Assembly (NCBI GenBank): GCA_018242565.1
Contig: JAFEBR010001138.1
Location: forward strand, 1-64,000
Direction of reading: 5' to 3'
Source of the DNA: Planctomycetota bacterium
Lineage (GTDB): Bacteria > Planctomycetota > Planctomycetia > Planctomycetales > Planctomycetaceae
Length of the DNA: 64,000 nucleotides
Below, piece after piece: positions 797-11,407 of the stretch. The translations under genes were made by a program, and so were the position numbers. The notes beneath the pieces were generated by a model that saw nothing but the letters and a program-made list of their open reading frames with translations, ran no database searches and had not been told where the DNA came from. Position 1 is the first letter of the stretch. Every line of letters starts with the position of its first letter.

Positions 797-1740
797 TACT
801 GGCTGGCGGACAACTGCAGCGTCCGCAATTCCCGCGGAACCTGGAAGTGGACATTCTCTTCGCGGACCGTGACCTCTTCGACCTCGGCTCCGTACGTCTG
901 TTTCAGGTATTCGACGCACTCCTGAACGACAACTTCCGGAGCACTGGCCCCCGCGGTAATCAGCACCGCCGAGACGCCGGTAAACCACTCGGGCCGCAAC
1001 TCGGCGACACCGTCAATCAGATAGGCGGGTTTCCCCTGCTGGGTGGCCAGTTCCCGCAGCCGCTGGCTGTTGGAACTGTTCTGGCTGCCCAGCACGATGA
1101 CCAGATCGACCCCCGGCGTCAGCGCACTGACCGCTTCCTGCCGATTCGTGGTCGCGTAACAGATGTCTTCTTTCGTCGGCCCGATGATCTCGGGAAACCG
1201 CTGCTGCAACCGCGAAATGACCCGGTTGGCCTCACTGACGCTCAACGTGGTTTGTGTCAGGTAGGCGAGCCTGGTGTTCGGCGGGACCTGCAATCGATCG
1301 ACATCTTCAGGAGAATCGACGAGTGAGATCTTGCCGGGCGCTTCGCCCATCGTGCCAATGACTTCGTCGTGCCCCTCGTGCCCGATCAGAATGATGTGGA
1401 ACCCGTCGCGCGAGAACCGGACCGCCTCCAGATGCACCTTCGTCACCAGCGGGCAGGTCGCATCGATCGTCCGCAGTCGCCGTCGCTGCGCCAACTCGCG
1501 AATCTGCGGCGACACGCCATGGGCGCTGTACAGCAGGATCGAACCTTCGGGCACGTCTTCGATCGCATCGACAAACGTGACCCCCTGCCGGGTGAACCGC
1601 TCGACCACGTATTTATTGTGGACGATCTCATGGTACACGTAGATACCGGTCCCGCAGATCTTCAGCGCCTGATCCAGGCACTCGATCGCCATGTTGACGC
1701 CGGCACAAAAGCCACGGGGATTCGCAAGCAGAACTTTCAT
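796..1740 (-). CDS. ispH: 4-hydroxy-3-methylbut-2-enyl diphosphate reductase IspH
   Basis: The 314-residue protein has the full IspH length. It catalyses the last step of the MEP isoprenoid pathway, reducing HMBPP to IPP and DMAPP with a [4Fe-4S] cluster. The three cluster cysteines are visible as C12 (N-P-R-G-F-C-A-G), C96 (D-A-T-C-P) and C194 (D-I-C-Y-A-T). The substrate-pocket residues H41, H74, H124 and E126 and the S-Q-N-S-S-N-S loop near 219-225 are also present. It is cytosolic. It is the first gene of a two-gene unit with the hydrolase, joined by a one-base stop/start overlap. Confidence 0.97.
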   Translation of the reverse strand: MKVLLANPRGFCAGVNMAIECLDQALKICGTGIYVYHEIVHNKYVVERFTRQGVTFVDAIEDVPEGSILLYSAHGVSPQIRELAQRRRLRTIDATCPLVTKVHLEAVRFSRDGFHIILIGHEGHDEVIGTMGEAPGKISLVDSPEDVDRLQVPPNTRLAYLTQTTLSVSEANRVISRLQQRFPEIIGPTKEDICYATTNRQEAVSALTPGVDLVIVLGSQNSSNSQRLRELATQQGKPAYLIDGVAELRPEWFTGVSAVLITAGASAPEVVVQECVEYLKQTYGAEVEEVTVREENVHFQVPRELRTLQLSASQ

Positions 1741-2066
1741 AGTTCCTCGTTGGTCATGAATCTCAGGAGTCGGCGGCAGACCGCCACCGTCTGGTCAGCC
1801 GGCCGATTCGGGCGGATTGTAGCAGATCGAGGAATCCCGGCGGTATCCCATGCGCGGACGTTTTCCCGCGAACCCGGGCGGCGGTTCTGGCCTCTGGATC
1901 TGACCGTCCGCAAAGCAGGTCCCACGTGATCGTCGGTGCGGGCGGAACACCCCACGACTTGAGGAACTCCACGTCCCTCTTTCATAATGCGGGCGGGGAT
2001 TTCCGCACTGATGCGGAGAATCGCCCAGCGCCACGACGTCGGGACACGCTACCGGGAGAAACTGTA
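1741..2066. other. divergent intergenic region, ispH / TPR gene
   Basis: This 326-bp region lies between divergent genes. No reading frame here resembles a protein; the open frames are short and of low complexity. The only element I can support is a possible sigma-70-like promoter facing right (TTGAGG, 18 bp, CATAAT at 1959-1988). Confidence 0.5.
1959..1988 (+). promoter_or_regulatory. candidate sigma-70-type promoter for the TPR gene
   Basis: TTGAGG at 1959-1964 and CATAAT at 1983-1988 are separated by 18 bp. The predicted start near 1995 leaves a leader of about 70 nt before the ATG at 2067. Each hexamer is one or two bases off consensus, so this is a reasonable but unproven assignment. 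Confidence 0.4.
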
Positions 2067-2594
2067 ATGGACGAAAAGGCACGACGCCGTCGCGACCGGT
2101 TGATCGATGAGGCCCAGGGATACCGGATGCTGGGAATGTACGACAACGCGCTGGAATCGCTCGACCGCATTCCGGCCGCCGACCGCGATGAATTCTCCGT
2201 CCTGTTCTTGCGGGGCGATCTGCTCCGCAGTGTCGAGCGACACGCCGAGGCGCTGGAGGTGCTGCACCGCGCCTTCGAGCAGCAACCAGCCGACGTCGAC
2301 CTCTTGATGGCGCTGGCCTGGTGTTATAAGCGGACCGATCAACTTCCCCGGGCCATCACCGCGATGGAACAGGCATACCAGATTGCCCCCAAAGAACCGG
2401 TCGTGCTCTACAACCTGTCGTGCTACTGGTCACTGGCGGGTGATAAGATGCAGTGCCTGTCGTGGCTCGGTCGGGCGCTCCGCATGAGTTCTGAATTGCT
2501 CAGCCTGATCGACTCGGAAACCGACTTCGACTCGTTGCGGCACGATCCCGACTTTGTGAAACTCGTGAACCTGGCCAAAGGGACGAAAACCTGA
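2067..2594 (+). CDS. tetratricopeptide repeat protein (TPR end-of-group type)
   Basis: The protein has 175 residues and is all helical. Three TPR-like units span roughly residues 10-120 (Y-R-M-L-G-M-Y-D-N-A-L-E-S-L; A-L-E-V-L-H-R-A-F; A-I-T-A-M-E-Q-A-Y). The C-terminal segment, with Y-N-L-S-C-Y-W-S-L-A-G and ending D-F-D-S-L-R-H-D-P-D-F, is typical of the planctomycete 'TPR end-of-group' tail. I chose the ATG at 2067, with GGGAGA upstream, over in-frame codons further up because the upstream frame reads as non-coding. There is no signal peptide, so it is probably a cytosolic protein-protein interaction module. Partner unknown. Confidence 0.85.
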   Translation: MDEKARRRRDRLIDEAQGYRMLGMYDNALESLDRIPAADRDEFSVLFLRGDLLRSVERHAEALEVLHRAFEQQPADVDLLMALAWCYKRTDQLPRAITAMEQAYQIAPKEPVVLYNLSCYWSLAGDKMQCLSWLGRALRMSSELLSLIDSETDFDSLRHDPDFVKLVNLAKGTKT

Positions 2595-2747
2595 AGCCCG
2601 CCGCCCTCGCTCACGACACGCACCGCGTTGCATCGACATTTCTTGATTCGTATAGTGCACGGGCAGGCTGGCGCTGGCTGGCATTCACATCACGTGCCCG
2701 GCATCTGGCCTGCACCGGCCCACTGGCACCATTTTGAGGATTCACCG

Positions 2748-4031
2748 ATGCTGCATTTCCCCCGCCTGACTCTCGTTTTTCCGGTCGCCCTGCTGTTGCT
2801 GTCGGCGACGGTTCATGCCGAGAACTGGCCGGGGTGGCGCGGGCCGCGAGGCGATGGATCGAGTCTCGAAGAAGGCGTTCCCACCCGCTGGAGCAGCACC
2901 GAAAACGTCGCCTGGAAGGTGGCCGTCCCCTACATCGGGCATGCCTCGCCCGTCATCTGGAACGACCACCTGTTTCTCGTCGGCACCGATCTGCAGAAAG
3001 CCGACCGCAACCTGTCGGCCTTCGATCGCAAAACAGGCAAGCTGCTCTGGAACCGGACGGTGGTGAACTCACCCCTCGAAGGCAAACATCGCCTCAACAG
3101 TTTTGCGTCGAGCACGCCGGTGACCGATGGCAAATCGGTCTTTGTCAGCTTCCTCGACCACGGTCAGATGTGTATCGCCGCGTATGACTTCGCCGGCAAC
3201 GAGCAGTGGACCGTAAGGCCCGGCATCTTCTCGAGCGTACACGGGTACTGCAGTTCGCCGATTCTGTTCGAGGACAAGATCATCATCAACGGCGACCACG
3301 ATGGGGACGCCTACCTCGTCGCTCTGGAGCAGGCGACAGGCCGCACCGTCTGGAAAACGCCCCGCGAAAACCGAACCCGCAGTTACTGCACGCCGATCAT
3401 CCGCGACATCGACGGACGAACGCAGATGGTCCTGTCGGGCAGCAAATGCGTCGCCAGCTACGATCCGCGGACTGGCTTACGGCACTGGATCATCGACGGC
3501 CCGACCGAACAGTTCGTGGCCTCGCTGGTTTACAGTCATGACCGACTGTTCGTGACGGGAGGCTTTCCGGAACATCACGTCCTGTCGATTGACCCGCATG
3601 GCACAGGCAACGTCACCAAAACGCACGTCGGCTGGCACCACACCGGCAAACTCGCCTCATACGTCCCGTCTCCCATCGTACTCGGCGATTACTTCTTGAT
3701 CGTCTCGGACGATGAGCTGGCCACCTGCCTGGATGCGAAGTCCGGGAAAGAACAATGGCAAAAGAAGCTCAGCCGACATTCGAGCGCTTCGCTCGTGTCG
3801 GCTGGCGGCCTTGTCTATTTCCTCGACGACTTTGGAGTGACCCAGGTCATCAAGCCCGGTCCCAGCTTTGACGTCGTCGCGGTGAATCGCCTGCTGGATG
3901 AAGCCGAAGGCCAGCAGGAAGCCGACCTGTGCTCGGCCTCGCCCGCGATCAGTCAGGGACAGCTCTTCATTCGCTCGGACAAGTTCCTGTTCTGTATCGG
4001 CGATACGAAACGGGCAGCCGGGGGGAAATAA
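2748..4031 (+). CDS. secreted PQQ-like beta-propeller repeat protein
   Basis: The 427-residue product starts with a Sec signal peptide (hydrophobic stretch at residues 7-21, probable cleavage after A-x-A near residue 23). It continues with W-P-G-W-R-G-P, the motif that opens many planctomycete secreted propellers. The rest consists of repeated blades such as L-S-A-F-D-R-K-T-G-K-L-L-W and V-A-L-E-Q-A-T-G-R-T-V-W, as in PQQ enzyme repeats. No dehydrogenase active site is evident, so it is more likely a structural or binding propeller than a PQQ enzyme. The ATG at 2748 is preceded by GAGG 8 bp upstream. A second family member lies at 30537-31760. Confidence 0.9.
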   Translation: MLHFPRLTLVFPVALLLLSATVHAENWPGWRGPRGDGSSLEEGVPTRWSSTENVAWKVAVPYIGHASPVIWNDHLFLVGTDLQKADRNLSAFDRKTGKLLWNRTVVNSPLEGKHRLNSFASSTPVTDGKSVFVSFLDHGQMCIAAYDFAGNEQWTVRPGIFSSVHGYCSSPILFEDKIIINGDHDGDAYLVALEQATGRTVWKTPRENRTRSYCTPIIRDIDGRTQMVLSGSKCVASYDPRTGLRHWIIDGPTEQFVASLVYSHDRLFVTGGFPEHHVLSIDPHGTGNVTKTHVGWHHTGKLASYVPSPIVLGDYFLIVSDDELATCLDAKSGKEQWQKKLSRHSSASLVSAGGLVYFLDDFGVTQVIKPGPSFDVVAVNRLLDEAEGQQEADLCSASPAISQGQLFIRSDKFLFCIGDTKRAAGGK

Positions 4032-4046
4032 CCCGGCCGCACACGC

Positions 4047-5129
4047 TCACAGGATTTCCAGCGTCGGCATCGAGGGAGTTTCCAGCAGCGACTTCGCGAT
4101 TTGAATGGCGGTCTGTTCGCAGACATTCATGAGCGGGCCGCGCGATGTACTGCCGGCGTCGAACGAAGCCGCGATCTGCCCGGCGTCGCCGTTGACGCGA
4201 ATCTGAGCGTCGATCGGAATTTCGCCCAGGAACGGCACTCCCATTTCGGCCGCTTTCTGTCGCGCTCCGCCGCGCCCGAAGACATCACCCGACATGTTCT
4301 CGACAATGCCCAGCACGGGAATCTTGACCTTCCGGAACATATTGATCGCTTTGACGGCATCCAGCAGCGCGAGTTGCTGCGGTGTACAGACCACAACGGC
4401 CCCGGCCAGTCCCAGCAGTTGCGACAACGTCAGGGCAATGTCCCCCGTTCCCGGCGGCAGGTCGATGATCAGGTAATCGAGATCTCCCCACGCGGTCTCA
4501 GCCAGGAATTGCCGGATCGTGCCGTGCAGGATCGGCCCGCGGACGATGACCGGTTCGTCGGGCGCGACCAGGAACCCGATCGACATGACCTTCAACCCGT
4601 TGGCATCAATCGGCTGGATCCGCCGAATCGTCTGGCCATCGGGACCTTTTTGCTCCACGATTTCGGGACGCTGGTTGACGCCCAGCAGGTGCGGCACGCT
4701 GGGACCATAAATGTCGGCGTCCATCAGACCGACTTTGGCACCGGCGAGTTGCAGTCCCACGGCGATCGAAGTAGCCACGGTGCTCTTGCCGACGCCCCCT
4801 TTACCGCTGCCGACCGCAATGACGTTTTTCGCCCGCAGTCCAATGGCGCCGCCGGTCTCTTTCCCTTTGACCTTGGCGTGAAACTGCACTTCGACCGGCC
4901 CGATGTTCTCGAATTTGCCAGCCAGCACAGCCCGAATTGACTCGGCCAGGCGCTCCCGACGGGGGTAGGCGGGGGTGGGGAGTTCGATCGTAACGGTGGC
5001 GGAGTTGTTCGCACCCAGCACCACGTTTTCGACCATATCCAGATCGACCAGCGACCGGCCGATTTCCGGGTCATTGACCTGTCGCAAAGCGTCGCGAAAC
5101 TGAGCTTCCGTAATCGTTGTATTACTCAT
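4047..5129 (-). CDS. mrp: Mrp/NBP35-type iron-sulfur carrier P-loop ATPase
   Basis: The 360-residue protein has an N-terminal MIP18/DUF59-like domain (about residues 6-88) and a ParA/MinD-type ATPase domain. The deviant Walker A G-S-G-K-G-G-V-G-K-S-T is at 108-118, with a D-x-D-x-x-G-P switch and D-L-P-P-G-T-G-D. Family members bind and deliver Fe-S clusters. The usual C-x-x-C between E-N-M-S and F-G-x-G-G is absent: the sequence goes E-N-M-S-G-D-V-F-G-R-G-G directly. The ATG at 5129 is preferred because the DUF59 domain begins there; an upstream codon at 5183 is possible. A ferredoxin gene lies upstream on the same strand. Confidence 0.92.
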   Translation of the reverse strand: MSNTTITEAQFRDALRQVNDPEIGRSLVDLDMVENVVLGANNSATVTIELPTPAYPRRERLAESIRAVLAGKFENIGPVEVQFHAKVKGKETGGAIGLRAKNVIAVGSGKGGVGKSTVATSIAVGLQLAGAKVGLMDADIYGPSVPHLLGVNQRPEIVEQKGPDGQTIRRIQPIDANGLKVMSIGFLVAPDEPVIVRGPILHGTIRQFLAETAWGDLDYLIIDLPPGTGDIALTLSQLLGLAGAVVVCTPQQLALLDAVKAINMFRKVKIPVLGIVENMSGDVFGRGGARQKAAEMGVPFLGEIPIDAQIRVNGDAGQIAASFDAGSTSRGPLMNVCEQTAIQIAKSLLETPSMPTLEIL

Positions 5130-5382
5130 TCGAGCCAAAACCTCGAGGATGTTACGTGGCGTGAAACGGTTGAGAGAGCGCAAATTCTGGCAAGGCCGCA
5201 GCGGGAAAACAAGGGGCTCGCGACCCCGCCGGCAATTCCAGAAAATCGGGTTCAGTCGGGTCCGAACCTGCGCGACTCGCCGACTGTCTGAATTGTTATC
5301 GGGACCTGTTTTTTGGCAAGTCGTACAGGCGGAATGACCACGAGCGCTGGGGAACTGTGCGGAATTCGCTCAACCGGAATGG

Positions 5383-5619
5383 TCACCAGTCGCAGATCTG
5401 CATCGTAATCGCCCGGGTCGGGCAGATGGCGTCGCAGATCGAACAGTTGATGCAGGTCTGCGGCGACAGCAGCACTTCGGTCTGGCGGGCCACGGTCAGG
5501 CATTCGACGGGGCAGATGCGGACACAATCTCCACACACCGTGCACAAACGCGAGTCAATCACCGGCAGGAGTTGTCGAGGCACAATCGTTACCGCAGCCA
5601 AAGGCGCATTTGCAGGCAT
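5383..5619 (-). CDS. small 2[4Fe-4S] ferredoxin
   Basis: This 78-residue cytosolic electron carrier has two complete C-x-x-C-x-x-C-x-x-x-C-P motifs: C26, C29, C32, C36 and C56, C59, C62, C66. An extra Cys (C40) follows the first motif and C76 sits near the end. The length and spacing are those of bacterial-type dicluster ferredoxins, with a 20-residue N-terminal extension. It is on the same strand as the Mrp-type ATPase (253 bp downstream) and 22 bp after the DUF1570 gene. The redox partner is not shown by the context. Confidence 0.9.
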   Translation of the reverse strand: MPANAPLAAVTIVPRQLLPVIDSRLCTVCGDCVRICPVECLTVARQTEVLLSPQTCINCSICDAICPTRAITMQICDW

Positions 5620-5641
5620 GCCACACGAGCAACACGCCCAT

Positions 5642-6859
5642 TCACTTCAGTTTTCCCAGGCTCTTCAGCATCGCCCGTTCCAGTTGGTTCAGATCGTCGC
5701 CAAAGGCCGCACGGAATTCGGCGAACCGTTCTTCGGGCGAATCGGCAACCAGCGGGGGCTTGGCCGCCAGAGTGTTCAGATACTTCACATAGGCTTCTTT
5801 TTTGGTGCGGATCAGGAAGTAACTCAAGACCCACGCCTCGGCATAAGCATCGGCCGATTGTTCGCTGTCATTAAAACGGGCGTCCGACATGATCAGGGTT
5901 TTCAGTGAATCAGGACGGCGACGCCCTGAGGACAGAAAATCGCGGAACTGGCCGAGTCGTTCGGTATTCACGGCCCCCGCGGTTTTCCAGCCCGACTTAT
6001 TGGACAAATCGGGCGTCTCGAAGTACATGGCCATGCCTTCGACCAGCCACAACGGGTTGTCGGCGAAACGCGTGTGCAGGCCACTGTTGAAGGCAATCTG
6101 GTGTGTTGCCTCGTGCACAATCGTGGCGATGTTGTACGGAATCGCTGCGACCTGCTTGTCGATGTCGGCATCACCAATCGGGCTGGCGTCGGCCGCGGTC
6201 AGGTCATACAGCACCATCCGATTAGTGGCGATCGAGAAATACCCCTTGGCGGTCGCCGCGTCGGCACCGGCATCCTGGGTGGCAAACCGGGCGAACTCTT
6301 TTTCCGACGCGAACACCAGGGCAATCAGCGGAAACTCGGGTTCCGCCAGCTTCATTCCCCGCTGCTTCCAGTGATTGTGAAACGAGGTATACAGCCGTTC
6401 GAACAACGCCCCGCACCATTGCGCGTATTTCCGGCGGGCACTCGTACAAATGACATAATGCCTGGTCGTCAGCACGTCGAACCCGGCCCCTAGTTCCGTT
6501 TTCAACTGCTTACCCAACGCGGCCGACGTTAACGGTGTGAAGGTTTCTCCCGTGCTGTCGCGCGCGGCCAGTTGTGGCTTGTCGATCGTCCAGAGCCGAC
6601 CGTCCTGCCCGATCACCAACAGACCGCCATCCTCGGCTTCCGTCAGCACCTTGCCGAGCACATCGCGTTCAGGCCCCTCGGCAGGGCGCCAGCGAAACCG
6701 CTCAAGCGGTGCCGCCGTGGATTCACCGGCGGGATTTCGGGGCGGATCAGCACGCGTTTCGGCCGCGAACACCAGACACAGCACGGCGATCAACAGGCAG
6801 TGGTACGGGCGATCCATGCTCGTATTATGACTTGTCCCCCCGGCCAGCGGAATGGACAT
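5642..6859 (-). CDS. DUF1570 family secreted putative zinc peptidase
   Basis: The 405-residue protein has a signal peptide (hydrophobic core L-L-I-A-V-L-C-L-V-F). The C-terminal half carries H-E-A-T-H-Q followed by W-L-V-E-G-M-A-M-Y-F-E, a gluzincin-like HExxH plus downstream Glu, as in DUF1570 proteins of planctomycetes. It probably acts outside the cytoplasm; the substrate is unknown. I set the start at the ATG at 6859 because GGGGTGG lies 4 bp upstream. The ATG at 6817 directly before the signal core is the alternative. The gene is divergent from the BlaI-type repressor, and the operator pair lies about 95 bp from its start. Confidence 0.85.
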   Translation of the reverse strand: MSIPLAGGTSHNTSMDRPYHCLLIAVLCLVFAAETRADPPRNPAGESTAAPLERFRWRPAEGPERDVLGKVLTEAEDGGLLVIGQDGRLWTIDKPQLAARDSTGETFTPLTSAALGKQLKTELGAGFDVLTTRHYVICTSARRKYAQWCGALFERLYTSFHNHWKQRGMKLAEPEFPLIALVFASEKEFARFATQDAGADAATAKGYFSIATNRMVLYDLTAADASPIGDADIDKQVAAIPYNIATIVHEATHQIAFNSGLHTRFADNPLWLVEGMAMYFETPDLSNKSGWKTAGAVNTERLGQFRDFLSSGRRRPDSLKTLIMSDARFNDSEQSADAYAEAWVLSYFLIRTKKEAYVKYLNTLAAKPPLVADSPEERFAEFRAAFGDDLNQLERAMLKSLGKLK

Positions 6860-6941
6860 CGCGCCACCCCGCACATTGGACACGCGCTGTTGAGTTCCTG
6901 CGGGGGCATTCCGGAAAAACTTCGTTTTTCGACAATTCGTC

Positions 6942-6970
6942 TTGACCATCATCTACCGCAGTAGTACGAT
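6942..6970 (+). promoter_or_regulatory. sigma-70-type promoter of the BlaI-M56 operon
   Basis: TTGACC (6942-6947), exactly 17 bp, then TACGAT (6965-6970). Transcription would start near 6977, giving a leader of about 42 nt to the ATG at 7019, which has GGAAGG at 7002-7007. The last 12 bases of the spacer are themselves a CTAC-N4-GTAG dyad, so a bound repressor would sit between the -35 and -10 boxes. Confidence 0.7.
6953..6964. promoter_or_regulatory. BlaI-type operator, dyad 1 (CTACCGCAGTAG)
   Basis: CTAC-CGCA-GTAG is a 4+4 dyad. BlaI/MecI/CopY repressors bind as dimers to short dyads with TACA/TGTA-like half-sites, and this one has CTAC/GTAG. It lies in the promoter spacer immediately before the -10 box and is matched by a second copy one 22-bp step downstream. 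Confidence 0.7.
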
Positions 6971-6974
6971 TCTC

Positions 6975-6986
6975 CTACTTCGGTAG
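6975..6986. promoter_or_regulatory. BlaI-type operator, dyad 2 (CTACTTCGGTAG)
   Basis: CTAC-TTCG-GTAG covers the expected transcription start near 6977. Its centre is exactly 22 bp, two helical turns, from the first dyad, so two repressor dimers would lie on the same DNA face. The arrangement predicts negative autoregulation of the operon. Confidence 0.7.
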
Positions 6987-7018: not shown

Positions 7019-7414
7019 ATGAGCAACAAATCCCAGTTGGCGTCGCTGCAACTGGCCATCATGCGCATCCTCTGGCAGAAAGAGGCCGCGACGGTCAGCG
7101 AAGTCCGCGACACATTAGCGGCCGAGGGGCGCGAACTCGCGTACACCACGGTGGCGACGATGCTCGCGAAAATGGAACGCAAAGGTCAGGTCGGGCATCG
7201 TGCCGGTGCCAAGGCGTTCGTCTACTTCCCCGCCCTGCCCCAAGAACAAGTCAGCCGCACGATGGTCAACGACCTCGCCGAACGCCTGTTTGGCGGCGAC
7301 ATCACCCTGATGGTCAGTCACCTGCTCGATGGTTGCGAACTGTCGGTTGACGAACTGGCCCGGTTGAAAGCGCTCATCCGCAAGAAAGAACAGGAGGACC
7401 GCCATGCCCGATAG
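7019..7414 (+). CDS. BlaI/MecI/CopY-family transcriptional repressor
   Basis: The 131-residue protein has full family length. The N-terminal winged helix spans about residues 5-75 (L-Q-L-A-I-M-R-I-L-W and V-S-E-V-R-D-T-L followed by A-Y-T-T-V-A-T-M-L-A-K-M, the recognition region). A C-terminal dimerisation helix pair covers about 80-130. Relatives are inactivated by proteolysis or by release from DNA when a partner M56 (BlaR1-type) peptidase senses a signal. Its gene overlaps that partner by 11 bp and lies behind two matched operator dyads, so it should repress its own operon. Confidence 0.93.
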   Translation: MSNKSQLASLQLAIMRILWQKEAATVSEVRDTLAAEGRELAYTTVATMLAKMERKGQVGHRAGAKAFVYFPALPQEQVSRTMVNDLAERLFGGDITLMVSHLLDGCELSVDELARLKALIRKKEQEDRHAR

Positions 7415-9074
7415 TCTGCTCGCGTGCTGCGCACTCATTCTGTCCTGGGTCACCAATTACCTTCTGCACTCCACGGTGTTAATGACCACCGTGTGGGGCT
7501 GGTTACGGTTCCAGACTTCGGCCAGTCATCGCCTGCGGGAAGTGCTGTGGAAAACCGCGCTGGTCGGAGGTCTCGCGACCGCCTCGGCCCAGATGCTGTT
7601 AGTTCCCGCCGGATCTTTCGGCAGTGTGACCTGGATGCTGCCGCTGGTGCAGACCGCACTGGTAGAACAATCGCCGGCCACTCCGTCTGAATCCACCGTG
7701 GTTTCAGACGAACATACGGAACCGGATGTGAACGACTCTTCGGACGATGCGCTCTTGTCAGCCAGCCACGAAGAGGTCGAATTCCTGGTCATGACGCGGC
7801 CGCATAAACAGGAAGCCCAGTCCCTTTCGCCCTCCCTCGAAATCAGTTCCCTGTCGGATACCAGGAGCGACAGCTCACGCCCACTTGCCGCCGCGACGGT
7901 CAGCCAACCGACATCTGGATCCATTCCTGCGGCCACAGTGCTGTTCGTTCTGGGATTACTGGCGATCGGTGCGGGCCTGGCTCGTTCCATCTGGCAGTCG
8001 GCACTCCTGTCGCGAAAACTGGCCGGTTGTGAAATCATCCACGAAGGAACGGCTCGCGACCTGCTCGACGAACTCTGCCGGTTTGTGCCTCGCACACCGG
8101 AAGTCCAATTGCTGACAACCCCGGAAGATTCCGAACCGGCGGCACTGGGCGTGCGAAAATGGACCATCGTTCTGCCGGAGCGCGCGCTGTTGGAATTATC
8201 CGAAGACGAACTGCGCTCGCTGCTGGCCCATGAGTTGGCCCACCTCGTCCGGGGTGACGCCGTCTGGCTCGCCATCAGCCGCTGGATCTGTACCTGCCTG
8301 GCGTTTCAACCGCTCAACCACCTGGCGCGACGGGAATGGCAGCGAGCCGCGGAGTTCCTGTGCGACCAATGGGCCGTCCATCGAACACGGAATCCACTGG
8401 CACTGGCGCGCTGCCTGACGGAAGTCGCCGGCTGGCGCCTGGCAGCCCACCTGCCTGCCGCCGCCCTGGCCGCCACCGGCCGGAAGTCGGGTTTGGTCGA
8501 TCGCATTGAATCACTTCTCAGACCGATCGCCGAGATCGAAACGACCGATGAGAACTCAACCGGCCTGCGAGCCATCGTGGGGGGCTGTTGCGGTCTCGTA
8601 CTGCTGGCAGTGCTGGCGCCACGTGTGACCGTCATTGCCTCTGCGGGCGAATTTCTGGCTGAACCTGACATCGAACTCGCGGACGCCGCATTCGAGGTTT
8701 CTGACCTGGAGTTGCAGGACCTGCTCGACTCCACGCCGGAAGAACTGATCGCCAAGATCGAACCCGCCGAGAGTCCGGAGCCCCTCGAAGACGATCACCC
8801 GGTGGCGATTCCCGTTCAGGGGCAACAGTCAGTTTCGATTCTGGAGACGAAACGTCTAGCGTTATCGCAGGCCCAAGAACTCACGACGGCCTTGGCGGCC
8901 CTGCATCGCGACCTCGATGCGGCGGAATCGGAACTGGCGGAATTGCAACCGCTGCTGACCGAGGCGGGGAACTCTGCGATCGCCACGAAAGTGGCGACGC
9001 GACTGCAGCAGGAAATTCAACGTTTGCGACAGCAACGCGATCTGCTGCGGGTGAAAGCCAAGTCTGTGCGTTAA
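7404..9074 (+). CDS. M56 (BlaR1-type) membrane metallopeptidase without a penicillin-binding sensor
   Basis: The 556-residue protein starts in the end of the repressor gene behind a strong AGGAGG. Hydrophobic segments lie near residues 5-30, 45-75, 175-200 and 390-412. The M56 zinc motif is H276-E-L-A-H280, and E317 in the sequence A-E-F-L-C-D is the probable third ligand. In BlaR1 a C-terminal beta-lactam sensor domain follows. Here the last ~145 residues are instead acidic then a predicted coiled coil (about 490-555). Likely role: membrane peptidase that senses an extracytoplasmic signal and relieves BlaI repression. The signal is unlikely to be a beta-lactam bound directly. Confidence 0.9.
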   Translation: MPDSLLACCALILSWVTNYLLHSTVLMTTVWGWLRFQTSASHRLREVLWKTALVGGLATASAQMLLVPAGSFGSVTWMLPLVQTALVEQSPATPSESTVVSDEHTEPDVNDSSDDALLSASHEEVEFLVMTRPHKQEAQSLSPSLEISSLSDTRSDSSRPLAAATVSQPTSGSIPAATVLFVLGLLAIGAGLARSIWQSALLSRKLAGCEIIHEGTARDLLDELCRFVPRTPEVQLLTTPEDSEPAALGVRKWTIVLPERALLELSEDELRSLLAHELAHLVRGDAVWLAISRWICTCLAFQPLNHLARREWQRAAEFLCDQWAVHRTRNPLALARCLTEVAGWRLAAHLPAAALAATGRKSGLVDRIESLLRPIAEIETTDENSTGLRAIVGGCCGLVLLAVLAPRVTVIASAGEFLAEPDIELADAAFEVSDLELQDLLDSTPEELIAKIEPAESPEPLEDDHPVAIPVQGQQSVSILETKRLALSQAQELTTALAALHRDLDAAESELAELQPLLTEAGNSAIATKVATRLQQEIQRLRQQRDLLRVKAKSVR

Positions 9075-9148
9075 TTGACCCGTTTGTCTTTTGAATCTGC
9101 AGGCCCACGCGCGGGCCATCTCAATTCTTCATCTGATCGGAGTCCAAC

Positions 9149-10399
9149 ATGTTAAAGTCGATGAGTACTGGTTTCACGTGCCTGGTTATCGCCACGCTGG
9201 GTGTAGCTATCAGTCGCGGGCAGGACGAACCCCAGACGGCGACCGTCACGGCGGAAGTGGCGGGGGCAGCCGAGGGTCAGGCCATCGTCGTCGGTGTGGA
9301 AGCCAACGGTGAACAGCCTGAGGTCCAGAACGTTGAAGCGGAAATCGTGATTGTCGGCGGGAGCGAAGCCGGCGCAGGCGAAAAGCTCCCGGGCGAAGAC
9401 AATAGGCTGTATCGGATCGGCAAAAAGCCCATCAACCTGAAAATCATCCGCAAGGAAGGCGAAGGCCTGGTCGTCACCGGTGAAGTCGTGACCAGCGACG
9501 GCAATGTCGTCACCGAAAACGTCGAAGGCGACGCGCCAGCAATTCGCCGAAAGGTGGTGTCGCTGCCGACCGGGGCCGCTCTCGACCCGAAAGTCCGCGA
9601 GACACTGGAAAAACTCAAGGCGTCATTGCAGGTTGAGATTGAACGACTGGCCAAAGAGGGCCAGCAGGAATTGGCCACCCAGAAAAAACAGGCACTGGAA
9701 GCCCTCGACCGACTGCTCTCGAACAAGGTCATCGAACAGGCTCATCGGCAGATGATTACTGTGACCGAGGTTGTGAAGAACGAAGAGATTGAAAAAGAAA
9801 TTGCCGCTTTGAAGGATCAACTGGCCGCCACCCTCGACAAGCTGAAAGCTCAAACGGATGCCGCGGTTGCCCAGGAATTGCAGGCTCAGAGCAAGGAACT
9901 CGAAGCCCGGATGGCACAGGCGAAGAGTCGGCTCGAAGCGGCCCTGAAACAACGCCAGACGCGGACGATCAAAGTCGTGCCTGGCAACCCCATCAATGTT
10001 CAGGGTGCTCTGGACCGCTTCACCGGCACCGTGAACGTCGAAGGACGCCCGCTGAGTCGGGAACAACTGGCCATCGTGCATGCGGCGCATGCCAAATCTC
10101 ATGCCTTGCGGCAACAGGCCGAAGCCCTGCAACAAGCGTCGCGACGCCTCAAAGAGGCCGGCTTGCATGACCAGGCACTCAATCTCGCCGAGCAATCCGA
10201 GAAACTTCGCGACCAGGCCGCGGCGGCCGAAAAGCACGAGGCCGAACACGCGGCCCGCATTCAACACGGCTTCGTCTTCGCGACCGCCGGAGAGGGAGGC
10301 CCAGAATTGCATAAATCCATCAAGGAACTGCAGGAACAGGTCCAACTGCTCCGCAAGGAAGTCGCGGAACTTCGCGAGATCCTGCAACAGAAACGTTGA
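9149..10399 (+). CDS. secreted coiled-coil protein of the BlaI-M56 operon
   Basis: The 416-residue protein has an N-terminal signal peptide (cleavage near residues 22-25). An acidic, Ala/Val-rich segment reaches about residue 75. Long heptad-rich helices cover about 150-275 and 310-415, rich in Ala, Glu, Lys and Gln. No enzymatic motif is visible. It lies 74 bp after the M56 gene in the same direction with no terminator between, so it is probably the third gene of the operon. Because the M56 protein also ends in a coiled coil, a periplasmic interaction between the two is plausible. Function unknown. Confidence 0.8.
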   Translation: MLKSMSTGFTCLVIATLGVAISRGQDEPQTATVTAEVAGAAEGQAIVVGVEANGEQPEVQNVEAEIVIVGGSEAGAGEKLPGEDNRLYRIGKKPINLKIIRKEGEGLVVTGEVVTSDGNVVTENVEGDAPAIRRKVVSLPTGAALDPKVRETLEKLKASLQVEIERLAKEGQQELATQKKQALEALDRLLSNKVIEQAHRQMITVTEVVKNEEIEKEIAALKDQLAATLDKLKAQTDAAVAQELQAQSKELEARMAQAKSRLEAALKQRQTRTIKVVPGNPINVQGALDRFTGTVNVEGRPLSREQLAIVHAAHAKSHALRQQAEALQQASRRLKEAGLHDQALNLAEQSEKLRDQAAAAEKHEAEHAARIQHGFVFATAGEGGPELHKSIKELQEQVQLLRKEVAELREILQQKR

Positions 10400-10518
10400 G
10401 CTTTGGCAAACACGATTCTTCGGCCGCTGCGTTCACGGCGTACCTGACGGGAAAGAGTGCTGCGAGCGCGGCGGCCTGTTTTTTTCTGTGACCAGCGGGC
10501 AGATCCTGCCTGTCAGGC

Positions 10519-10531: not shown

Positions 10532-11407
10532 ATGCAGCCTGCCTGTCTGATCATCGGTTGTGGATATCTGGGCCAACGCGTCGCCGCCGCCAGGGTCTCG
10601 CAAGGCTGGCGTGTTTACGCACTCACGCGATCAACAGACCGTGCACTGGAATTCCAGGCCGCCGGAATCGTCCCGCTGCTTGGCGATGTTACGCAGGCTG
10701 ACTCTCTACCAGATTTTCCCGCGGTCGACACACTGCTCTACGCCGTGGGACTCGACCGCCGAACGGGCCATTCCCAGCGCGACGTTTACGTCGAGGGACT
10801 GAACCATGTGCTGCCGCTGCTGAGCGGAAGGACGCAGCGAGCCATCTATATCTCGAGCACGAGCGTCTATGGGCAGAACGACGGCACCTGGGTGGATGAA
10901 GCTTCAGAATGCACGCCCACCTCTGCCAACGGACAAGTCTGCCTGGAAGCCGAGCGTTTGTTCCAGCAGTATTTGCCTCAGGCCAACATTCTGCGACTGT
11001 CGGGCATTTATGGCCCCGGGCGACTGATTGCCCGCATCGACGCACTCCGTGCCGGAACCTCGCCGGGGGGCAACCCTGATGCCTGGCTCAATCTGATCCA
11101 CATCGCCGATGCGACCCGCGCCGTCCTGGCCTGCGATCAAAGCAGTGCCGCCGGGACCACGTATCTGATTTCTGACAACGAACCAGTACGCAGGCGAGAC
11201 TTCTATTCCCGGTTGGCCGAACAAATCGGTGCCCCGCCCCCCTTCCCCGAGAGTGGCATCGTTGCCGCTCCCACCAGCGACGCACTGGAATTGAACAAAC
11301 GCTGCCGCAACCGCCGCATGCGTGAAGAGTTGGGGGTCCAACTGCAATTCCCTGACTTTCGCAGCGGCCTGCCCGACGCCCTGAGCAAACCACCGGCAGC
11401 GAATTGA
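10532..11407 (+). CDS. NAD(P)-dependent epimerase/dehydratase, YeeZ-like SDR
   Basis: The 291-residue protein begins with a Rossmann fingerprint, I-I-G-C-G-Y-L-G-Q-R. It has the extended/atypical SDR features I-S-S-T-S-V-Y-G and L-R-L-S-G-I-Y-G-P-G. The classical Y-x-x-x-K is not evident; the position after S-V-Y-G is Q-N-D. This layout matches the YeeZ-like branch of NAD-dependent epimerases, of unknown substrate. I set the start at the ATG at 10532, where the Rossmann strand begins; the frame is open further upstream but reads as non-coding. It is followed by surE on the same strand after 215 bp. Confidence 0.85.
   Translation: MQPACLIIGCGYLGQRVAAARVSQGWRVYALTRSTDRALEFQAAGIVPLLGDVTQADSLPDFPAVDTLLYAVGLDRRTGHSQRDVYVEGLNHVLPLLSGRTQRAIYISSTSVYGQNDGTWVDEASECTPTSANGQVCLEAERLFQQYLPQANILRLSGIYGPGRLIARIDALRAGTSPGGNPDAWLNLIHIADATRAVLACDQSSAAGTTYLISDNEPVRRRDFYSRLAEQIGAPPPFPESGIVAAPTSDALELNKRCRNRRMREELGVQLQFPDFRSGLPDALSKPPAAN

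Follow-up and report, generated by a model that had tools for sequence, protein, structure and literature searches.

Background

The closest described relatives of the operon reported here are the BlaI-BlaR1 and MecI-MecR1 systems of Staphylococcus aureus and Bacillus licheniformis, in which a BlaI-family repressor acts over the promoter of its own operon. To our knowledge BlaR1 is an antibiotic receptor, and most M56 genes have no known input. The Rv1846c-Rv1845c (BlaI-BlaR) pair of Mycobacterium tuberculosis includes an M56 protein that lacks a penicillin-binding domain and is regulated with BlaI; we know of no exported coiled-coil partner for it. CpxA-CpxP and RseA-RseB are two-part envelope sensors, which the present operon would resemble if its third protein were a soluble inhibitor of a membrane receptor; they differ from it in that the proteins are unrelated and in that the output here would be proteolysis of BlaI. 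As to mechanism, one account (PMC9834060) describes direct cleavage of BlaI by BlaR1 and a signal carried by the outer sensor domain, by an outer loop and by movement of the sensor toward the membrane.

Here we analyse the window, a 64,000-nucleotide stretch of planctomycete DNA, and the relatives of an operon that it contains. Like the staphylococcal and bacillar systems, this operon has a BlaI-family repressor predicted to act over the operon's own promoter and an M56 membrane protease with HExxH, a distal glutamate and a fold best matched by BlaR1. Unlike them, it encodes a protease with a short helical-hairpin tail in place of a penicillin-binding sensor domain, has a separate gene for an exported coil-bearing partner, and contains neither a beta-lactamase gene nor mecA. 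Single-chain M56 receptors of Gemmatimonadota, Myxococcota and other Planctomycetota share its catalytic core and in many cases an adjoining blaI, whereas their presumed sensing part (HEAT, PDZ or others) is fused to the protease and here is a separate gene. A search of the open-licence literature, in which most subscription papers are missing, brought up no account of this operon or of exported coil partners of M56 proteins.

Layout of the operon and its neighbours

Three genes running in the same direction form the operon (Table 1): blaI, the M56 protease gene, whose start overlaps the 3' end of blaI, and the gene for an exported helical protein. A first-pass annotation of this DNA had reported a three-gene operon with an intact M56 protease of BlaR1 type lacking a penicillin-binding domain, and that observation is borne out as a whole; its linkage of the M56 gene and the third gene stands, while its coordinates began at 7404 and so missed blaI (7019-7414). 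The source genome is 9.3 Mb in size, and its M56 gene from the window is nearest to loci of Planctomicrobium and other Planctomycetaceae.

Table 1. Features of the operon region (positions in the window)
Feature	Position	Strand	Remarks
Sigma-70-like promoter TTGACC-17-TACGAT	6942..6970	+	precedes blaI; overlaps operator 1
Candidate BlaI-type operator 1, CTACCGCAGTAG	6953..6964	.	tandem pattern search
Candidate BlaI-type operator 2, CTACTTCGGTAG	6975..6986	.	22 bases from operator 1
blaI	7019..7414	+	131 aa; BlaI/MecI-family winged-helix repressor; Pfam PF03965, 1.1e-28
M56 membrane metalloprotease gene	7404..9074	+	556 aa; BlaR1 fold, without penicillin-binding domain
HELAH zinc/catalytic motif, residues 276-280	8229..8243	+	H276, E277 and H280 invariant
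E317, third zinc ligand by homology with BlaR1	8352..8354	+	invariant in relatives
Tail helical hairpin, M56 residues 476-555	8829..9068	+	AlphaFold2; tail profile
Exported helical partner protein gene	9149..10399	+	416 aa; no Pfam match at its cut-off
Signal-peptide-like start, about 24 residues	9149..9220	+	read from the sequence by eye; presumed cleavage point
Four-heptad coil, residues 387-416	10307..10396	+	coil profile; common to nearly all partner proteins
Terminator-like hairpin, 3' of the third gene	10458..10475	+	weak; shuffles give many such sites

Two flanking genes were considered as possible operon members and are treated as neighbours. A divergent gene on the minus strand (5642-6952), encoding an exported putative metallopeptidase of the DUF1570 family, shares with the operon the intergenic region that holds the operators; a relative lies near an M56 gene in one (L052) of 42 loci searched. 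The NAD-dependent epimerase gene at 10535-11404 has a promoter-like site of its own, and relatives occur in four of the 42 loci (L048, L050, L051, L059); it is kept 3' of the operon in the window's own sub-clade and not beyond.

The repressor and its candidate operators

The Penicillinase_R domain spans residues 9-121 of the first protein, which also matches the MecI structure 1sd6 in the PDB over residues 3-123 (6.9e-9); by these domain matches the gene is assigned to the BlaI/MecI repressor family. Two promoter-like sites were found in the region, against a mean of 0.7 in shuffles. Both predicted operators are CTACnnnnGTAG palindromes, the first lying over the promoter, so that the sequence offers a putative palindromic operator at BlaI's own promoter.

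A strict search for the tandem pattern across the whole genome returned the window site only, with none in a backwards control; the single-operator pattern gave one match in the backwards control too. Across 170 genomes of the family there were 23 occurrences of the tandem pattern: 15 belonged to loci of the M56 clade defined below and 8 lay elsewhere. Because the backwards control gave 17, the sites outside clade loci are at chance level. At least one exact operator site was present in 23 of 34 clade upstream regions (shuffled mean, 0.07). By eye, operator centres in the clade often read CTAC-YNNR-GTAG, and those at many M56 loci in other phyla CTAC-ANNT-GTAG; the choice of BlaI may depend on this centre.

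The M56 protease

The second protein matches Pfam Peptidase_M56 (1e-16), and a profile built from 34 M56 sequences retrieves BlaR1 from the PDB (1.3e-5). In alignments of 39 subfamily members and of 34 sequences there is no variation at H276, E277 and H280 or at E317, which upholds the earlier claim that both motifs are intact. The AlphaFold2 model (mean pLDDT 77) places helices at residues 2-36, 42-66, 176-207 and 383-404, and its five best PDB matches in Foldseek are all BlaR1 (8exp-8ext). With HExxH, the distal glutamate and four membrane helices, the protein is a member of the M56 (BlaR1) peptidase family.

The protein does not qualify as a beta-lactam receptor of BlaR1 type: a search for the sensor domain came back empty, Pfam detecting no penicillin-binding or transpeptidase domain in it at E<=1. 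The NCBIfam model blaR1_generic covers residues 209-325 only and scores 25 bits against a cut-off of 400. Beyond the fourth membrane helix, a low-confidence linker leads to a tail hairpin of two helices (476-520 and 525-555) modelled at a block pLDDT of 84-96. The first-pass annotation had described this C-terminus as a coiled coil in place of a penicillin-binding domain; the absence of that domain holds, and helical hairpin is the more fitting term for the tail. TM2 and TM3 are joined by a long outer loop (low-confidence at 91-170), which, unlike the tail hairpin, is conserved neither in length nor in sequence.

The exported third protein

AlphaFold modelled the third protein poorly (mean pLDDT 55, 9 sequences), and helix positions alone were taken from the model. 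The first third of the chain is non-helical; helices begin at residue 147 and are arranged as helical hairpins, followed by the C-terminal coil, a regular run of 4-3 heptads. The earlier description as a signal-peptide protein made of long helices was thus right about the signal-peptide-like start and about the chain from residue 147 onward, and wrong for the first third. Pfam detected no domain in the protein at E<=0.01, secretin-type domains included; the Secretin/CpaC-like class, which is recognised by a Secretin or T2SS-T3SS_pil_N domain, does not appear to include it.

Five recognisable orthologues of the 416-residue protein (G057, G101, G163, G164 and G166) all lie 3' of an M56 gene. Contigs of close relatives scanned with the third protein alone gave no match, and a match in G024 (6.5e-4) was set aside as a generic helical protein with no M56 gene nearby.

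Different exported proteins share one coil

Among the M56-relative loci in the family, the gene that follows a clade M56 gene nearly always encodes an exported protein. Forty such downstream proteins contained, by Pfam, Secretin (8), the pilus-formation N domain T2SS-T3SS_pil_N (8), BON (7), thioredoxin (7) and RcpC (3) domains, and several, that of the window among them, had no domain match. What the partners have in common is a segment of about 28 residues resembling LHxEVRxLRxDVRxLxELLEKR.

A coil profile of this segment matched at E<1e-3 in 34 of 39 testable family loci, the window included, testable meaning that the sequence continued for over 1.2 kb beyond the M56 gene; six further loci counted as truncated and were left out, and one of these (L075) holds a complete short partner without the coil. 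L063 went unmatched, with a shifted coil visible by eye; L086 has a broken gene and was unmatched in this test, its coil being found in a six-frame search; the coil of L089 is weak (0.13) and those of L070 and L077 are degenerate. In that six-frame search, which took in 1608 ORFs from 54 loci and the window, matches at E<1e-4 fell only in genes after an M56 gene; among them were some on which the profile had not been trained, namely those of L062, L066 and L086 and the second gene of L064.

Genome-wide searches rejected the idea that this is simply a common planctomycete coil. In the window's genome the coil of the third protein is the sole match of its kind (E 2e-8; next 0.35), and the profile found no second coil protein there. 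The 170 family genomes hold 38 coil places at E<=1e-5, and 35 of these adjoin a clade M56 gene. The first-pass annotation had named, as a finding that would overturn its proposal, a third protein occurring mostly apart from M56 partners; the 35 of 38, together with the five orthologues beside clade M56 genes, show the opposite, and the third protein does belong with the protease. As for the remaining places, that in G147 lies at a contig end and its M56 gene at the end of another contig, and those in G141 and G143 have no M56 gene within about 5 kb. The latter two (L127, 5503-6804, and L126, 5259-6515, respectively) are partner-like coil proteins with, by eye, a thioredoxin-like C-terminal part; they are possibly orphans or relics. 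Eight of 22 weaker places (1e-5 to 1e-3) were examined: one follows a clade M56 gene, two are inside other M56 proteins and five have no M56 gene.

In the wider phylum (392 genomes, for many of which 20 candidates were scored) there are at least six coil places at E<=1e-5 outside the family, four after an M56 gene and two cut by contig ends. The order blaI, M56 gene, coil gene recurs in other planctomycete families. The M56-partner arrangement is real, conserved and more general than first supposed.

Association of the coil with the protease tail

In 80 named loci a hairpin profile was applied to the M56 tail and the coil profile, at a cut-off of 0.05, to the genes after it. Among loci outside the training set with enough sequence, the coil was present in 5 of 5 with the hairpin and in 1 of 32 without it (Fisher 1.4e-5, a value that overstates the association and is not exact because the species are related, four of the five positives falling in the same clade). 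One of the five, L161, reaches the coil cut-off only at 0.028, and two loci scored as coil-negative, L209 and L180, end in coils by eye. An M56 tree, from which L149, L174 and L176 were left out, groups 28 of the 30 coil-bearing rows in one clade of 37 rows (SH-aLRT 99); the two outside it, L196 and L201, are both planctomycetes.

Over 29 pairs, coil distance tracks tail distance when the catalytic core is controlled for (partial correlation 0.27; 0 of 2000 permutations as high). Resolved by region over 28 pairs, the partials with the coil were 0.28 for tail helix 2, 0.21 for the whole tail and 0.08 for tail helix 1, and elsewhere 0.06 for the N-terminus, 0.07 for the TM3 region, 0.13 for TM4, 0.13 for the first half of the core and -0.07 for its second half. 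The co-variation points weakly to the tail.

A proposed split receptor and the alternatives to it

We think it probable that the operon is a self-regulating, split BlaR1-type receptor in which exported subunits, exchangeable for one another, bind the tail of the protease by means of the common coil. As judged from its sequence, the operon belongs to a split M56 receptor clade that we propose here, consisting of blaI, an M56 protein with a hairpin tail and an exported coil protein. We infer the docking, the cleavage of BlaI and the direction of control. BlaI bound to the two tandem operators over the promoter would repress the operon. The M56 protein would span the inner membrane, its protease facing the cytoplasm and its hairpin the outside, where the exported protein would dock through its coil as the detachable input part of the receptor; hairpin and docked partner would, by analogy, replace the sensor domain of BlaR1. 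An envelope condition that altered the bound partner, by removal, loading or unfolding, would switch the protease on, and cleavage of BlaI would allow expression of the operon. Because the strict tandem operator was found nowhere else in the genome, the main regulated product would be the partner itself. This suggests a homeostatic loop, with unbound partner turning the protease off once more. Negative feedback with the partner as inhibitor is a guess towards which we lean slightly, an activating partner being nearly as likely.

The first-pass annotation had tentatively read the locus as a BlaI/BlaR-type system for a signal other than antibiotics, with a coiled-coil contact between the two proteins outside the membrane. 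The system itself is there, with BlaI and M56 domains and no penicillin-binding domain found; the contact receives indirect support from the co-occurrence of hairpin and coil and from the weak tail-specific co-variation, with the amendments that the M56 side is a hairpin and that the partner is one of many architectures carrying the same coil. Against a split receptor stand the two coil proteins of G141 and G143 that lack an M56 gene, the degenerate, weak or absent coils of L070, L075, L077 and L089, and the modest size of the co-variation, in which the first half of the core and TM4 also reach 0.13.

Coils, moreover, stick to many things, and this one could serve homo-oligomerisation. The exported protein might then be a homodimer or trimer and an ordinary envelope output of the BlaI-M56 pair, with the input elsewhere, for example in the M56 outer loop at about 67-175. 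Regular heptads would homo-oligomerise readily, two coil proteins lack an M56 neighbour, and the TM2-TM3 outer loop is long, its equivalent in BlaR1 being involved in signalling (PMC9834060). A coil that merely oligomerised would, however, need neither confinement to genes after clade M56 genes nor co-occurrence with the hairpin, and it is the tail hairpin that is conserved while the loop varies; we regard this explanation as rather unlikely. Nor do the Secretin and pilus-formation N domains (eight each) or the BON, RcpC and thioredoxin domains among the 40 downstream proteins persuade us to see in the exported protein a client or structural component, tethered near the membrane by tail and coil for assembly of an envelope structure with BlaI setting its dosage. 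Such a role is improbable, since it leaves the same coil on unrelated domains unexplained and the window's own partner lacks a secretin-like domain. A degenerate beta-lactam system would fit the family membership of BlaI and M56. In it, a separate penicillin-binding protein would still relay beta-lactams or wall damage to the M56 protein, and the third gene would serve in resistance or repair. We consider this very improbable: Pfam found no penicillin-binding or beta-lactamase domain in the operon, and with the tandem operator absent from the rest of the genome, no resistance gene is seen under it.

Should the partners indeed bind the tail of the protease, the sequence would reveal the inputs of a large planctomycete clade, and a repressor-protease pathway would have a receptor of two parts that can be swapped. 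A three-gene system would then allow tests of how a phylum with unusual cell walls monitors its envelope. Extending the split-receptor reading, we tentatively suggest, at somewhat less than even confidence, that Planctomycetota possess a modular receptor class in which one protease with a standard docking hairpin is combined with swappable coil-bearing inputs, each operon being homeostatic for its own subunit. As part of that same tentative reading, the input subunits might be helical, secretin-like, BON, thioredoxin, RcpC or STN proteins with the docking coil alone in common.

M56 genes beyond the clade and variant loci

Coil partners are rare outside the M56 clade. In ten long M56 proteins scanned from outside it, the protease is followed by fused HEAT or PDZ domains, or no further domain was recognised at its cut-off; the studied clade combines a short tail with a separate exported gene. 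The window's genome has nine further M56 genes, eight of which adjoin a blaI; their reading frames run from 509 to 3312 residues, and contig ends truncate four. A coil-like stretch occurs in two M56 proteins of a different type, from G059:C94 (L129, 4309-6720) and G068:C70 (L134, 4967-6904), within their own long tails rich in proline, arginine and acidic residues; neither was counted as a fusion of the M56-coil system. At L064 (G084:C26), two successive exported genes on the minus strand (1677-3482 and 3551-6505) follow the M56 gene and both encode the coil, as if this protease had two partners.
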